Below are positions 19,581-63,676 of a stretch of DNA of 64,000 bases, one piece after another. Position 1 is the first letter of the stretch. The number at the start of each line of letters is the position of its first letter. This DNA comes from Thermophilibacter mediterraneus (lineage in GTDB: Bacteria > Actinomycetota > Coriobacteriia > Coriobacteriales > Atopobiaceae). The position numbers and the translations under genes were made by a program. The DNA is taken from assembly GCF_900119385.1 (NCBI RefSeq), contig NZ_FPKO01000009.1, positions 395,405-459,404 on the forward strand, written 5' to 3'. The notes beneath the pieces were generated by a model. That model saw only the letters and a program-made list of their open reading frames with translations. It had not been told where the DNA came from and ran no database searches.

Positions 19581-20918
19581 CTAGGCCCGGTGCGGCTCGA
19601 GCGCCCTGAGGACGAAGGCGTTCGCCTCGCGGCAGAGCTCCTCGGTGGGCGCCTCGGCGAGCGTCCTGACGAGCGGCTCGGTGCCCGAGGCGCGCACGAG
19701 GACGCGCCCGCGGCCGGCGAGGAACTCCTCCGCCTGCCGGGCGGCGGCGAGCACCGCCTCGTCGGACATGGCGGCATCCTTGTCCCCCACGCGAACGTTG
19801 ACGAGCTCCTGCGGGTAGAGCTTGACCGGGGCGCACAGCTGTGAGAGCGTCTCGCGCTCCGCCCGGATGACCTCCATGACGCGCAGGGACGTCATGATGC
19901 CGTCTCCGGTGCACTCGATGTCGCCAAAGATGACGTGCCCCGACTGCTCCCCGCCGAGGCTGTAGCCGTTCTCGCGCATGCAGGCATAGACGTTCTTGTC
20001 GCCCACGGCGGTCGTCTCGTAGGAGAGGCGGGCGTCGTCGAAGGCCTTGAACAGCCCGTAGTTGCTCATGACCGTCGGCACCACCGTGCCCGCCGTGAGG
20101 CGTCCGTGCTTGTTGAGGTAGACGCCGCAGACGTAGAGGATGAGGTCGCCATCGACCACGTTACCGCGCTCGTCCACCGCGATGCAGCGGTCGGCGTCGC
20201 CGTCATAGGCGAACCCGACGTCAAGCCCCTGCTCGACCACGTGGCGGCGCAGGCGGTCGATGTGGGTCGAGCCGCAGTCGACGTTGATGTTGAAGCCGTT
20301 GGGGCTGTTGTTGATCACGCGCACGTCGGCGCCGAGGGCGTCGAACACGGGCTTCGCCACGGAGGACGCCGCCCCGTTGGCGCAGTCGAGGCCGACCTTG
20401 ACGCCCTGGAGGGAGAAGTTCGCGCTCGCGATGAGGTGGGCGATGTAGCGATTGCGGCCCTGCATGTAGTCGACCGTGCAGCCGATGGCGTCACCCGTGG
20501 CGAGCGGCACCTCCGTCTTTCCGTCGATGTAGTCCTCGATGAGCTCGAGGACGTCCTCGTCCATCTTGTAGCCCTCGCTGTTGACGAGCTTGATCCCGTT
20601 GTCGGTGTAGGGGTTGTGGGACGCGGTGATCATGACTCCGCAGTCAAACGCGCCGTCGACGACCTCGTAGGAGACGCCGGGCGTGGGGATGACGTGAAGC
20701 ATGTACGCGTCCGCGCCCGAGGCCACGAGACCCGAGACGAGGGCGGACTCGAACATGTAGCTCGAGCGGCGCGTGTCCTTGCCAATGATCACGCGCGCCT
20801 TCCTCTGCTGGCGGGCGCCGTAGTACCAGCCGACAAACCGCCCGATCTTGAACGCGTGCTCGACGTTGAGGCCCTCGTTGGCCACTCCGCGGAAGCCGTC
20901 GGTGCCAAAGTACTTCAT
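19581..20918 (-). CDS. glmM: Phosphoglucosamine mutase
   Basis: 445 residues from the ATG at 20918, the family length. Starts MKYFGTDGFRGVAN. The phosphoserine loop is ITASHNPYTDNGIK, the metal site is YDGDADRCI, the sugar loop is GGEQSGHVIF and the phosphate loop is VRASGTEPLVRTL. Converts glucosamine-6-phosphate to glucosamine-1-phosphate for UDP-GlcNAc. First gene of the run to glmS and acpS. Contrast its intact active site with the altered loop of the paralogue at 59.5 kb. Confidence 0.97.
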   Translation of the reverse strand: MKYFGTDGFRGVANEGLNVEHAFKIGRFVGWYYGARQQRKARVIIGKDTRRSSYMFESALVSGLVASGADAYMLHVIPTPGVSYEVVDGAFDCGVMITASHNPYTDNGIKLVNSEGYKMDEDVLELIEDYIDGKTEVPLATGDAIGCTVDYMQGRNRYIAHLIASANFSLQGVKVGLDCANGAASSVAKPVFDALGADVRVINNSPNGFNINVDCGSTHIDRLRRHVVEQGLDVGFAYDGDADRCIAVDERGNVVDGDLILYVCGVYLNKHGRLTAGTVVPTVMSNYGLFKAFDDARLSYETTAVGDKNVYACMRENGYSLGGEQSGHVIFGDIECTGDGIMTSLRVMEVIRAERETLSQLCAPVKLYPQELVNVRVGDKDAAMSDEAVLAAARQAEEFLAGRGRVLVRASGTEPLVRTLAEAPTEELCREANAFVLRALEPHRA

Positions 20919-21007
20919 GCGTGTCCCCTTCTCGCGAGTGCGTGTGAGCGGCATACGCATTCATCCTACTCTCGCCCGCATTTCATCGCGCCAGGCGTTA
21001 CCCATTT

Positions 21008-54238: not shown

Positions 54239-54356
54239 GGTCAGCGACGTCCTGCTCTCCCACGGACTCGCTCCGCAGTACCATCGGCGCTCGGGGGCTT
54301 AACTTCCGGGTTCGGAATGGGACCGGGTGTGCCTCCCCTGCCATGGTCGCTGACCA
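54239..54356 (-). rRNA. 5S ribosomal RNA, copy 2
   Basis: Identical to copy 1, including the extended processing stem on both sides. Confidence 0.93.
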
Positions 54357-54453
54357 ACAAGGGGCATTCCAGGGGTACGGCCGAGCCGTGCCCTCAGGGC
54401 CGCACAGCGTGACGTCCGACGGGCCTCGCGGCCCCCTCGGGATCGCATGTATG

Positions 54454-59136
<4,683 letters not shown>

Positions 59137-59353
59137 CAGTGAGCGCCGGCCGAAGCCGGCGCCGATGCTCTGCTCGGCGGTCCGTCCCGTCTAAGATCCC
59201 GCTGATCTCGGATTCGCTGAAATTGACGTCTCTGTGTGTCAGAGATTCGAATTTCGCTGGTCTGTCTTCGTCGATCTCTCGATCGCAGTATCCGGTTCTC
59301 AAGGTCCCCCCGCGCCGGGCCGCGGCCGTGGCCGCTCCGTCGCGCGGGGAATA

Positions 59354-59452: not shown

Positions 59453-60838
59453 CTAGAAGCCCTCGCGCACGAGTTCGCACGCGGCACTAAGCAAGTCGTC
59501 TCGGTCACGCGCCGTCGCCGCCTCCGCGTAGACCCTCACGACGGCACTCGTCCTCGAAGGCCTTACAAGCGCCCAGGAGTCATCGTCGAACTGGACCCTG
59601 AGGCCGTCCGCGTGCGAGACCTCGATCGGAGCCTTGCCTGCGAGTTTCGCGGGATTCAGGCCGGGGAGCACGTTTCGGAACGCTTGACTCGCCGCAGGGT
59701 CGAGGCGAATGTCCCTGCGCGCATAGGACATGCAGCCGATTGCGGACTCGAGCTCGCCCGTCATGGTTGAGAGCGACTTTCCTGACTTTGCGAGCATCTC
59801 GACTGCGAGCAGGCATACCAGCAGGCCGTCGCGCTCCTTGAGATGGGAAGGGACGCATACGCCCCCGTACTCCTCCACCCCCATGATCACGTCAGTATCG
59901 AGCATCTCACGATAAATCCGAGAGAACCCGACCGGCACCGATGTCGTCTCGCATCCGAGCCGCTCCGCCTCGCGCTCGATGCACGCCGAGCACGTAAGCG
60001 TCGTGACCACTCGTCCGTGGGCCCCGTGACCCATCACGAGGTTGCCGAGCACCATGGGCACCAGTACGCGAGCGGGGAGCAGGTTGCCCAGCTCGTCCAC
60101 TACTGCAGCTCGGTCGGCGTCACCGTCGAGCAGCAGCCCCATATCAGCCTCGTGTGCGACGACTGCCTGCTCGCACGCATCCGCCCAGGGGTCGCGCGGG
60201 TCGGGATGAATGCCGCCGAAGTCCTCGCGCTTCTCGACATGAATCTCGATGACCTCGCAGCCGAGCTCCCCGAGCAGCCGGGCCAGGCATGCCGTCCCCG
60301 ACCCGTACATGGCGTCGACGACGATTCGGGGCCGACGAGCCGCGATCACCCCACGGTCGACGAGACTCGCAAGGTGCTCGAGGTAGGGCCCGACGAGGTC
60401 GCACTCCTCGAACGCGCCTCGCTCGCTCGAGGGCTTGAGCGAGATGGCCTGCTCGACCTCGTCCAGGAAGTCCCGCGAGACGGGGCCTCCGTCGAAGCCG
60501 CGCACCAGCACTCCTCCGTACTCGCAGGAGCGCTCGCTCGCCGTGAGGATGACCGCGCCGTACGCAGCATCGTCCTGGGCGCATGCCCAGGCCACGGCGG
60601 GAGTCGGGCAGGGGGCGTCCGACATCTTGACGACGAGCCCGTATGCAGCGAGGATTCCGGCGACGAGGCGCGCACCATCGGCAGACCCGTGACGCGTGTC
60701 GTACCCGACGTAGATCGTCGAATCGGGCGCCGAGTCGGCCCACATGACGCCAAGGGCGTCGGCAACGCGCGCCAGGTTCTCGGAGTCAAAGCCGTCGTCG
60801 AAACGCGCGCGCCAGCCGTCGTAGCCGAAGCGAATCAT
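59453..60838 (-). CDS. Phosphoglucomutase/phosphomannomutase-family protein with altered active-site loop
   Basis: 461 residues from the ATG at 60838 (AGAGGAG upstream). Alpha-D-phosphohexomutase fold in four domains. Metal site LLLDGDADRA (DGDADR at 238-243) is intact. The phosphoserine loop, normally TASHNPxxxNG, reads TASERSCEYGG (Ser101 kept, His-Asn-Pro lost). The N-terminal motif FGTDGxRG is FGYDGWRA and the sugar loop is GVEEYGG. The phosphate loop is VRPSRTSAVVRVY instead of RPSGTEP. It probably acts on a sugar phosphate that GalU, encoded 13 bp upstream, then activates; altered specificity or activity is inferred. Confidence 0.85.
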   Translation of the reverse strand: MIRFGYDGWRARFDDGFDSENLARVADALGVMWADSAPDSTIYVGYDTRHGSADGARLVAGILAAYGLVVKMSDAPCPTPAVAWACAQDDAAYGAVILTASERSCEYGGVLVRGFDGGPVSRDFLDEVEQAISLKPSSERGAFEECDLVGPYLEHLASLVDRGVIAARRPRIVVDAMYGSGTACLARLLGELGCEVIEIHVEKREDFGGIHPDPRDPWADACEQAVVAHEADMGLLLDGDADRAAVVDELGNLLPARVLVPMVLGNLVMGHGAHGRVVTTLTCSACIEREAERLGCETTSVPVGFSRIYREMLDTDVIMGVEEYGGVCVPSHLKERDGLLVCLLAVEMLAKSGKSLSTMTGELESAIGCMSYARRDIRLDPAASQAFRNVLPGLNPAKLAGKAPIEVSHADGLRVQFDDDSWALVRPSRTSAVVRVYAEAATARDRDDLLSAACELVREGF

Positions 60839-60851
60839 GTCTCCTCTCTTG

Positions 60852-61757
60852 CTATCCAAGGAGACGCTCGCCCCTCTCGCCCAGGGCCTCGCGGAAGGCC
60901 TCGACCTGCGCGGGGTCGTCGAGCGCCATGCGCGCGTTCGTTGCGGCCCAAGCGGCGGGCGTACCGGTGTCGCAGCCCTCGGAGGGGTCAACCACGAGGG
61001 CGTACATCTCCTCCTCCGCAAGCAGGCGCTCCATCGCGTCAGTGAGCTGAATCTCGTTGCCCGCGCCGGGCCCCTGAGTTGCCAGCAGGTCCATGATGCG
61101 CGGGGAGAGCAGGTAGCGACCCACTATGAAGAGGTGCGAGGGCGCGTCCTCGGGGGCCGGCTTCTCGACGAGGCCCGTAACCTTCCAGACGGCGCCCTCC
61201 TGCTCACCGACGGCATCGGTGCCGGGATAGCTCCCGACGCACGTGCCCGCGATGATGCCGTACCGGCTCACCTGGTCCGCCGGAACGGGCGCCACGGCGA
61301 TGACCGAGGCGCCCCCGTGCTCCCGGGACACCTCTGCCATGCGAACGCACATCTGGCGTCCGGGCACAAAGTAATCGCCTAGAAGAACGAAGAACGGGTC
61401 GTCATCGACCTCGCCCGCCGCCTGGAGCACCGCGTGCCCGAGCCCGCGGGCCTCGTCCTGGTACACGAAGGAAACGGGAAGCGTGGACGCAGCGTGCACA
61501 CGGGCGGCCTCCTCGGCCTTGCCACGTGAGCGCAGCATCGACTCGAAGACGTGGTCGACCGAGAAGTAGGACTCGATCTGCGGCTTCTCGTGCGAGTTGA
61601 TGATGACGACGCCGTCGACCCCCTCGGGCTCGAGCGCCTCCTCAACGACATACTGGATGACGGGCTTGTCAAGAACCGGCAGCAGCTCCTTGGGGGTGCA
61701 CTTGGTTGCCGGGAGAAAGCGCGTGCCGAGTCCGGCGGCAGGAATGATTGCCTTCAT
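60852..61757 (-). CDS. galU: UTP-glucose-1-phosphate uridylyltransferase
   Basis: 301 residues from the ATG at 61757. MKAIIPAAGLGTRFLPATKCTPKELLPV is the nucleotide-binding signature (start of it shown: AAGLGTRFLP); VIINSHEKPQIESYF, LLGDYFVPG and GLVEKPAPEDAPSHLFIVGRYLL follow. Makes UDP-glucose for envelope polysaccharides and glycolipids. Shares an operon with the phosphohexomutase. Confidence 0.95.
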   Translation of the reverse strand: MKAIIPAAGLGTRFLPATKCTPKELLPVLDKPVIQYVVEEALEPEGVDGVVIINSHEKPQIESYFSVDHVFESMLRSRGKAEEAARVHAASTLPVSFVYQDEARGLGHAVLQAAGEVDDDPFFVLLGDYFVPGRQMCVRMAEVSREHGGASVIAVAPVPADQVSRYGIIAGTCVGSYPGTDAVGEQEGAVWKVTGLVEKPAPEDAPSHLFIVGRYLLSPRIMDLLATQGPGAGNEIQLTDAMERLLAEEEMYALVVDPSEGCDTGTPAAWAATNARMALDDPAQVEAFREALGERGERLLG

Positions 61758-61864
61758 CTGAGATTCCTTCGCTTCGGTTTTCCAGAGGCCGCCCTCGATG
61801 CTCAGCGGCACCCAAAAGATACCCCAACGTCTCGTCCGTCATTCGCCTATACCCGCCAGCGGAC

Positions 61865-61929: not shown

Positions 61930-62355
61930 CTACTCGGGAATCCTGAGACCCTGTCGCTCGAGGTAGCCGATGAGCCGTCCCATCGTGTCCTCGGACAGGA
62001 CGTGCTCCATGAGGCACGCCTCGCGATCGGCAACGTCGGGGTCCACGCCGAGATCCGTCTCGAGGAAGAGTCGCAGCGCCCGGTGCGCGCGCCACACCAG
62101 CGCAGCGTAGTCTCGGCCGCGCGAGGTGAGCGTCACCCTGCCGTAGCGGCTCTGCTCGACCATGCCGGTCTCCTTGAGCGTGGAGAGAGCCTTGTTGACG
62201 CTCGCCTTCGAAACGCCGAGCTGCTCCGCGACATCGACCGAGCGGACCGTCCCGTCCGCCACCTGATCGTGGAGCGAAAGACGGTAGATTGCCTCGAGGT
62301 AGTCCTCGCTCGCCTTGGTCAGGACGTGGTCGTCGTGATTCTCTGCTCCGGGCAC
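61930..62355 (-). CDS. DtxR/MntR-family metal-dependent regulator
   Basis: 141 residues from a GTG at 62355 with GAGGAGG upstream. Winged helix at about 10-70 (SEDYLEAIYRLSLHD, VRSVDVAEQLGVSKASVNKALSTLKETGMV) and a dimerisation/metal domain (LFLETDLGVDPDVADREACLMEHVLSEDTMGRL). No SH3-like third domain, so closer to MntR than DtxR. Probably senses manganese or iron. Follows murA by 34 bp; its targets are not visible here. Confidence 0.9.
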   Translation of the reverse strand: MPGAENHDDHVLTKASEDYLEAIYRLSLHDQVADGTVRSVDVAEQLGVSKASVNKALSTLKETGMVEQSRYGRVTLTSRGRDYAALVWRAHRALRLFLETDLGVDPDVADREACLMEHVLSEDTMGRLIGYLERQGLRIPE

Positions 62356-62389
62356 GTCGCCTCCTCTCGTCGCGTCGTCGGGAACGACG

Positions 62390-63676
62390 CTACATGGTGA
62401 TGTCGTCGTCCTCGTCGGCAACGGTCGTGCGCTCGATGCGCGCGCCGAGCGAGGAAAGCTTCTCGACGAAGCCCTCGTAGCCCCTGTCGATGTGATGAAT
62501 GTCAGAGACGGTGGTCACACCATCCGCGACGAGGCCCGCCATGACAAGCGCCGCGCCGCCGCGCAGGTCCGGGGATCGAACCTGCGCGCCCGAGAACCCC
62601 TCGACGCCGTGAACAATGGCGTGATGGCCCTCGATGACGATGTCCGCACCCATGCGCGAGAGCTCGCTGGCAAACATGAACCGGTTCTCAAAGACGTTCT
62701 CGGTGATGACGCAGCTTCCCTTTGCGAGCGCGAGCAGGCACATCGTCTGGGCCTGCATGTCCGTGGGGAAGCCGGGGAACGGCAGCGTCTGAATGTCCGT
62801 GGGGGCCAGGGGCCGATCGCGCCAGACGGTGCAGGCGCGTGCCTCACGCTCTACGGAGGCACCCATCTGCTCAAACTTCTTGAGAACGAGGCCGAGATGC
62901 GTGGGGTTGAAACCGCGCACCGTCACTGGACTGCCAGTCAGAGCGCCGATGGCCAGGAAGGTGCCCGCCTCGATGCGGTCACCGACGACCTCGTGCGTGA
63001 CCGGGTGGAGCTCGGACACGCCCTCGACCTCGATGACCGGCGATCCGGCGCCCGACACCTTCGCGCCCATCTCGTTGAGCATATTGGCGAGGTCCACGAT
63101 CTCCGGCTCGCGCGCCGCATTGTCGATTGTGGTGGTGCCCCGGGCAAAGACCGAGGCCATCATGAGGTTCTCGGTGGCCCCCACGCTCGCAAAGGAGAGC
63201 GTGACGGTGTCGCCGACAAGGCCGTGCGGCGCGCTCGCATAGATGTTGCCGTGATCGACCTTGAACTCGACCCCAAGGGCCTCGAGTCCCAGGATGTGCA
63301 TGTCGATCTTGCGGGCGCCGATGTTGCAGCCCCCCGGCATCGCGACGACCGCCTTGCCGAAACGCGAGAGCAGCGGTCCAAGCACTGCGGTCGAGGCGCG
63401 CATCTGGGCCACGAGATGATAGGGGGTCTCCCAGGAGTCAACGCCAGAGGTGTCGATCTTGAGCTCGTGCTCGTTTACGACCTCGATCTTGGCGCCGATG
63501 TTCTTGAGCACCTTTCCCATCACGTGGACGTCCGCGATGTTGGGAACGTTCGTGAGCGTGGTGGTACCCGAGGCCATGATGGTCGCTGCCATGAGCTTGA
63601 GCGCGGAGTTCTTTGCCCCCTCCACGCGCACCTCGCCCGTGACGTCGTGACCGCCCTCTACCCGTATGACGTCCAT
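62390..63676 (-). CDS. murA: UDP-N-acetylglucosamine 1-carboxyvinyltransferase
   Basis: 428 residues. Catalytic Cys117 lies in MPGGCNIGARKIDMH (so fosfomycin-sensitive type), with VEGAKNSALKLMAA at the N-terminus and the C-terminal DLRGGAALVMAGL and IDRGYEGFVEKL. First committed step of peptidoglycan synthesis, using UDP-GlcNAc from the GlmS-GlmM pathway encoded 40 kb away. Follows atpC by 12 bp, an ATP synthase-murA order seen in many Gram-positive bacteria. Confidence 0.97.
   Translation of the reverse strand: MDVIRVEGGHDVTGEVRVEGAKNSALKLMAATIMASGTTTLTNVPNIADVHVMGKVLKNIGAKIEVVNEHELKIDTSGVDSWETPYHLVAQMRASTAVLGPLLSRFGKAVVAMPGGCNIGARKIDMHILGLEALGVEFKVDHGNIYASAPHGLVGDTVTLSFASVGATENLMMASVFARGTTTIDNAAREPEIVDLANMLNEMGAKVSGAGSPVIEVEGVSELHPVTHEVVGDRIEAGTFLAIGALTGSPVTVRGFNPTHLGLVLKKFEQMGASVEREARACTVWRDRPLAPTDIQTLPFPGFPTDMQAQTMCLLALAKGSCVITENVFENRFMFASELSRMGADIVIEGHHAIVHGVEGFSGAQVRSPDLRGGAALVMAGLVADGVTTVSDIHHIDRGYEGFVEKLSSLGARIERTTVADEDDDITM

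Follow-up and report, generated by a model that had tools for sequence, protein, structure and literature searches.

The window, that is, the whole 64,000-nt stretch of Thermophilibacter mediterraneus DNA analyzed in this study, contains a gene for a 461-aa protein, P0001, that lies directly downstream of galU, with 13 bases between the galU stop codon and the mutase ATG. A DtxR/MntR-like regulator gene and a murA-like gene are located further upstream, and an rRNA operon follows the mutase (Table 1). The names murA, dtxR and that of a methyltransferase-like gene found before the mutase in another family (see below) were given by reading and are presumptive. The gene coordinates of the original prediction were borne out, with the minus strand being the coding one. 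A promoter scan from galU to the rRNA operon detected no sigma-70-type site.

Table 1. Positions of the genes and active-site loops in the window
Feature	Coordinates	Strand	Remarks
Putative pseudo-phosphohexomutase gene (P0001)	59453..60838	-	translation, 461 aa
Loop 0, FGYDGWRA, residues 4-11	60806..60829	-	Thr6 and Arg10 places variable in Atopobiaceae
Loop 1, TASERSCEYGG, residues 99-109	60512..60544	-	Ser101 kept; His, Asn and Pro replaced
Leu111 codon	60506..60508	-	fixed Lys in canonical orthologues (34/34), Lys in 1/126 Atopobiaceae
Loop 2, metal site DGDADR, residues 238-243	60110..60127	-	three Asp and Arg present
Loop 3, GVEEYGG, residues 320-326	59861..59881	-	sugar-binding Ser replaced by Tyr324
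Loop 4, RPSRTSA, residues 426-432	59543..59563	-	phosphate-binding Arg, Ser and Thr retained; Arg429 in place of Gly
galU, UTP-glucose-1-phosphate uridylyltransferase	60852..61811	-	longest ORF; named by reading and homology
DtxR/MntR-like regulator gene	61930..62421	-	neighbor in relatives' loci too
murA-like gene	62390..63676	-	upstream neighbor
16S rRNA gene	57627..59138	-	first of the rRNA operon; starts about 315 bases past the mutase end
23S rRNA gene	54453..57391		same operon, downstream of the mutase
5S rRNA gene	54239..54354		same operon, downstream of the mutase
glmM	19581..20960	-	canonical comparator: FGTDGFRG, TASHNP, DGDADR, GEQSG, RASGTEP

P0001 Has a Phosphohexomutase Fold With Altered Active-Site Loops

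All four PGM_PMM Pfam domains (I–IV) scored above cut-off in P0001, and these, an AlphaFold2 model (mean pLDDT 86.2, pTM 0.87) and whole-length fold matches indicated a complete four-domain α-D-phosphohexomutase fold. The closest solved structure by fold was Thermococcus kodakarensis 9du5 (Z 43.9, 2.5 Å over 431 residues), with Thermus thermophilus 1tuo at Z 43.3 and likewise Foldseek matches, while 1tuo was the closest by sequence (E 7.8e-57). GlmM–CdaA structures also appeared among the fold matches. Residues 6–13 (loop 0), 102–106 (loop 1) and 204–217 of the model had pLDDT values below 50. P0001 matched seven NCBIfam equivalog families (GlmM, PgmG and others), none above the cut-off, the best being TIGR03990 with 258.3 vs. 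a cut-off of 439; however, a canonical orthologue (genome G053) is likewise under all NCBIfam cut-offs, so this failure does not separate P0001 from the canonical type.

The three altered loops described in the original prediction were all present, and so were the metal site, with its three Asp and Arg, and Ser101, the putative catalytic phosphoserine. The His that follows the phosphoserine in TASH, SASH or TPSH loops is Glu102 in P0001. Loop 0 had been compared with FGTDGxRG, which is the motif of GlmM; orthologues of P0001 have FGTDGWRA, so that only the replacement of Thr, by Tyr6, stands. In the sugar loop, E322 is kept and the Ser is replaced, whereas the phosphate-loop Arg, Ser, Thr and second Arg are all present (R426, S428, T430, R435). 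Beyond the changes noticed originally, Leu111 replaces the loop-1 Lys, Ser306 the domain-3 Lys of canonical orthologues, and Tyr324 the sugar-loop Ser. In PaPMM numbering, the counterpart sites are H109, K118 and R20, of which K118 has an essential role in PaPMM. According to PMC7761743, PMC6443537 and PMC5570346, the His and loop-0 Arg are the proposed acids in α-phosphohexomutases, the loop-3 Glu and Ser bind sugar hydroxyls, and the loop-4 Arg pair binds phosphate.

Catalytic Residues Are Lost Throughout Atopobiaceae

To place these changes, 179 orthologues were compared, comprising 126 from Atopobiaceae (assigned from record titles and taxonomy), 17 from what we take to be Coriobacteriaceae, and 36 from other families. 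After G046 and G047 were set apart from the latter, the remaining 34 rows served as the canonical set; the 53 orthologues outside Atopobiaceae were hand-chosen rather than a random sample. The frame-broken G091 was excluded from loop-1 counts, leaving 125 readable Atopobiaceae rows.

The Ser-His pair was found in 0/125 readable Atopobiaceae rows vs. 51/53 sampled orthologues of other families (34/34 canonical and 17/17 Coriobacteriaceae), demonstrating that the absence of His-Asn-Pro from the phosphoserine loop, first noticed in the window protein, is real and family-wide. The alignment with relatives that the original prediction proposed as a check thereby gave a divided answer, with canonical loops absent inside Atopobiaceae and present in the orthologues of other families. 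Only G046 and G047 deviated outside Atopobiaceae: G046 has lost Ser and the metal ligands, clusters inside Atopobiaceae on the tree and also lies behind galU, and G047 is a 168-aa fragment with TSGQDP. Eleven Atopobiaceae rows keep a His at that place, every one without the Ser. In PMC7761743, only two sequences with Arg at the His place of the phosphoserine loop are reported among 20,000.

Ser, His and loop-1 Lys were each found in all 34 canonical rows. In Atopobiaceae, place 111 is Lys in 1/126 rows and Arg in 17, the sugar-loop Ser is kept in 3/124, with Tyr in 84, and the loop-0 Arg (R10), kept in P0001, in 41/125, including 7/30 in the window's genus. For the phosphoserine, 93/125 rows retain it and 32/125 lack it; for the metal triad, the figures are 89/126 and 37/126, respectively. 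The phosphate-loop residues are nearly constant (R426 in 119/124, S428 and R435 each in 121/124), as are R336 (124/124), D47 and R49 (both 125/125). In total, 131 columns are fixed in the canonical set, of which 34 drop below half in Atopobiaceae, many of them in catalytic loops. Coriobacteriaceae are intermediate, combining the Ser-His pair in 17/17 with Asn in only 5/17 and the sugar-loop Ser in 1/17.

Outside the catalytic loops, P0001 carries LPGLNP at residues 391–396, of which 391, 392, 393, 395 and 396 are nearly fixed in Atopobiaceae, and H409 was found in 124/124 Atopobiaceae, 17/17 Coriobacteriaceae and 2/33 canonical rows. One record titled Candidatus Butyricicoccus stercorigallinarum (L037) has an Olsenella-type mutase (78%) and is probably a contaminated or mislabeled bin. 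A sequencing or assembly artefact was ruled out as the source of the altered loop, as 30 genomes of the genus share the loop and named records show it too (5 of 20 checked directly).

The Mutase Lies Behind galU in Atopobiaceae

The vicinity of galU noticed in the window proved to be a conserved adjacency, with galU directly upstream of the mutase in 123/126 Atopobiaceae, vs. 0/17 Coriobacteriaceae and 0/34 canonical loci. Among loci with 7 kb readable, murA occurs at most 7 kb upstream in 75/77 Atopobiaceae, 15/17 Coriobacteriaceae and 0/26 canonical loci, and among loci with at least 1 kb readable, a 16S gene occurs within 1 kb downstream in 35/45, 5/6 and 0/33, respectively. In Atopobiaceae, murA, the dtxR-like gene, galU, the mutase and the rRNA operon run in one direction. 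The Coriobacteriaceae loci read have the murA and rRNA ends, with the methyltransferase-like gene where Atopobiaceae have galU.

galU is present in 136/140 Atopobiaceae genomes. It persists in g27, G084 and G092, which have lost the mutase, down to a remnant in the last, and in G110 and G111 the mutase is kept with galU elsewhere. In g47, which has no galU next to the mutase, a second galU of more distant type (about 65%) was found, and G113 has such a gene as an additional copy. Some long open frames among the homologue matches could represent galU fusions. A mirror-tree analysis of 85 genomes gave no galU-specific signal (partial correlations: mutase–galU 0.43, mutase–murA 0.44, galU–murA 0.36), and co-evolution with GalU was dropped as an explanation because that signal is unspecific.

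Canonical Mutases Coexist With P0001

The window genome carries three members of the α-D-phosphohexomutase superfamily. The window GlmM shares superfamily and fold with P0001 but is a separate paralogue, with about 26% identity over residues 3–360; as predicted, it has all the canonical motifs, and it passes TIGR01455 (516.5 vs. 447.55 bits), whereas P0001 neither has the full canonical set nor passes an NCBIfam cut-off. A PGM2-like mutase (578 aa) with canonical motifs is encoded elsewhere in the genome.

When PGM2-like mutases were searched in 246 genomes of the class (E 1e-60), they were present in 60/60 mutase-bearing Atopobiaceae genomes tested. In the family taken as Eggerthellaceae, 30 genomes have the orthologous mutase, 30 have PGM2 and none has both, and this mutual exclusion of the canonical and PGM2-like mutases resembles a natural phosphoglucomutase swap. 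In the families other than Atopobiaceae, Eggerthellaceae and Coriobacteriaceae, the mutase occurs in 59 genomes, PGM2 in two and both in none. The two therefore substitute for each other outside Atopobiaceae and Coriobacteriaceae, which fits the canonical orthologue being a phosphoglucomutase. In Coriobacteriaceae, both mutases occur in 32/45 mutase-bearing genomes. Since 16 of the 17 aligned Coriobacteriaceae rows come from PGM2-bearing genomes and all 17 keep Ser-His, redundancy would permit the loss but is insufficient alone.

The Gene Is Maintained by Selection

Parsimony was applied to a 133-row tree, made by a quick method with active-site columns omitted and SH-aLRT support only, and having several weak forks and long branches. 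It gave one change for the Ser-His pair, 12 for the phosphoserine and 10 for the metal triad, counts that do not distinguish loss from gain. The NG86 estimates of dN/dS, from hand-picked pairs some of which have dS >1, were 0.025–0.307 for the mutase (24 of 26 Atopobiaceae species pairs yielding a value), and nine of these pairs, from serine-less lineages (those with Thr in place included), likewise span 0.025–0.307. The highest values were in g30, where galU and murA are equally raised. Canonical pairs (n = 3) gave 0.093–0.142 and Coriobacteriaceae pairs (n = 2) 0.038 and 0.113. The Atopobiaceae mutase is comparable to galU and to canonical mutases. Purifying selection has thus been maintained despite the lost catalytic residues, as expected of a pseudoenzyme, and the low values, serine-less lineages included, indicate that the gene is in use even where the normal reaction cannot run.

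The open frame is full-length in nearly all 126 Atopobiaceae; G135 and G162 end at contig edges, and the G091 mutase (L150) is split over two frames (pieces 1–161 and 231–460) by a frameshift in the assembly or the gene. Fourteen Atopobiaceae genomes had no mutase match at E 1e-60, and nine of them, all but G015, G063, G088, G159 and G161, were examined. No recognizable mutase was found behind galU in G060 (just 642 bases readable), G061, G062 and G084. All that is left behind galU in G092 is an N-terminal remnant of the mutase overlapped by another gene (L222, 5015 to about 4683), G065 has a divergent mutase (best E 8e-55), and the sequence stops at a contig edge in G103, G126 and G150.

A Probable Phosphosugar-Binding Non-Enzyme

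At the level of sequence, the comparisons established the catalytic losses, the retention of the gene, its neighborhood, the selection on it and the coexisting mutase. The reading that we favor as probable on these grounds is that an ancestral mutase, once redundant, ceased to transfer phosphoryl groups and has been kept as a non-enzyme that binds phosphosugar, with mutase activity absent, phosphosugar still bound and a regulatory or scaffold role. The original suggestion of an inactive regulator would accordingly fare differently in its two parts, inactivity in the ordinary mutase reaction being well supported by comparison and the regulatory role being conjectural. GalU would be the first candidate partner, as suggested by the neighborhood, which has the counter-examples given above. 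It is conceivable, and we propose it only tentatively, that the former phosphoglucomutase senses glucose-1-phosphate or glucose-1,6-bisphosphate and tunes GalU, hence the supply of UDP-glucose for the cell envelope.

In the proposed course of events, the canonical Coriobacteriia enzyme of the phosphoglucomutase type would be the forerunner of P0001. The Atopobiaceae ancestor would have belonged to a clade having the PGM2-like enzyme as a second canonical mutase; there, the gene would have sat in the murA–dtxR–rrn locus and gained galU as its upstream neighbor. The Ser-His pair, the loop-1 Lys and the sugar-loop Ser may have been lost first, and the phosphoserine and metal ligands themselves later, in several lineages, while the fold and the phosphate-binding loop would have remained under selection. 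The domain-4 loop (R426, S428, R435) may still grip a sugar phosphate, with Tyr324 and Arg429 reshaping the cleft, and the open/closed movement could signal or scaffold at the glucose-1-phosphate/UDP-glucose node.

The counterpoint comes from the window's genus, in which Ser101 and the metal triad are conserved in 30/30 and Glu102 in 29/30. Loop 1 follows a strict motif of its own in this genus, and E106, Y107, G108, G109, Y324 and R429 are invariant among 21 aligned sequences. Such conservation could point to changed catalysis and not to its absence. The protein would then be a phosphotransferase whose chemistry is altered or whose substrate is new, in which Ser101 is phosphorylated, Glu102 acts as acid/base, and Tyr324 and Arg429 remodel the sugar site. 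The invariance of R336, which occupies the place proposed for the general base (PMC7761743), is also consistent with this, and the mutase with new specificity of the original prediction stands for this genus as a less probable reading. However, sister lineages with the same gene at the same place and under the same selection have lost the Ser or the metal triad, so a function shared with them cannot need phosphoserine; in addition, place 111, where the loop-1 Lys would be, is hydrophobic throughout the genus, and loops 0 and 1 were modeled at low confidence. It appears unlikely that P0001 is instead an ordinary but slow phosphoglucomutase, or a glucose-1,6-bisphosphate synthase like Slr1334 (cd05800), tolerating the changed loops. 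The Ser, the metal site and the phosphate-loop Arg, Ser and Thr would allow it, cd05800 members occur in Eggerthella and Slr1334 has glucose-1,6-bisphosphate synthase activity (PMC9426568), and mutation of the His in Pseudomonas aeruginosa PMM/PGM left some activity rather than abolishing it (PMC7761743), a result that also weighs against the favored reading. But the His, the loop-1 Lys, the sugar-loop Ser, the domain-3 Lys and often the loop-0 Arg are altered together, P0001 is under every NCBIfam cut-off, and the reaction is already provided by the PGM2-like paralogue, whose motifs are canonical.

The many catalytic losses, the lack of the gene next to galU in g27 as well as G084, and the remnant in G092 would also be expected of a pseudogene decaying after replacement by PGM2. 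This is very improbable and was rejected on the full-length frames and a dN/dS as low as that of galU; in addition, new residues have become fixed family-wide, such as G393 and H409, the latter in Coriobacteriaceae too.

Few features of the ancient α-D-phosphohexomutase superfamily are as constant as the His of the phosphoserine loop. A family-wide clade whose intact genes remain under selection, while every catalytic element has been lost step by step, forms a natural series in which to ask what residues are really required for the reaction and what the mutase fold does without catalysis. T. mediterraneus itself encodes both active paralogues, GlmM and the PGM2-like mutase, so the function should be cleanly separable. 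No description of such a bacterial protein was found in the open-licence papers searched.

Comparison With Known Phosphohexomutases

The solved structures nearest to P0001, 9du5 and 1tuo, carry a TASHN-type loop, unlike P0001. The canonical Coriobacteriia orthologue has the same fold and 35–49% sequence identity to P0001, and is its likely ancestor; it differs in having canonical loops (34/34) and in lying neither behind galU nor at the rRNA locus, and it possibly belongs to cd05800, the group of the glucose-1,6-bisphosphate synthase Slr1334. Vertebrate PGM5 (aciculin) is like P0001 in having the α-phosphohexomutase fold, and it is described in PMC7761743 as keeping the substrate-binding residues with no known mutase activity, herring PGM5 being inactive with substrate binding intact. 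However, PGM5 is a eukaryotic muscle protein that keeps nearly all catalytic residues and shares only 20–22% identity with P0001 in the structural alignment, whereas the P0001 family has lost the Ser-His pair, the loop-1 Lys and the sugar Ser and, in some Atopobiaceae lineages, also the Ser or the metal ligands.
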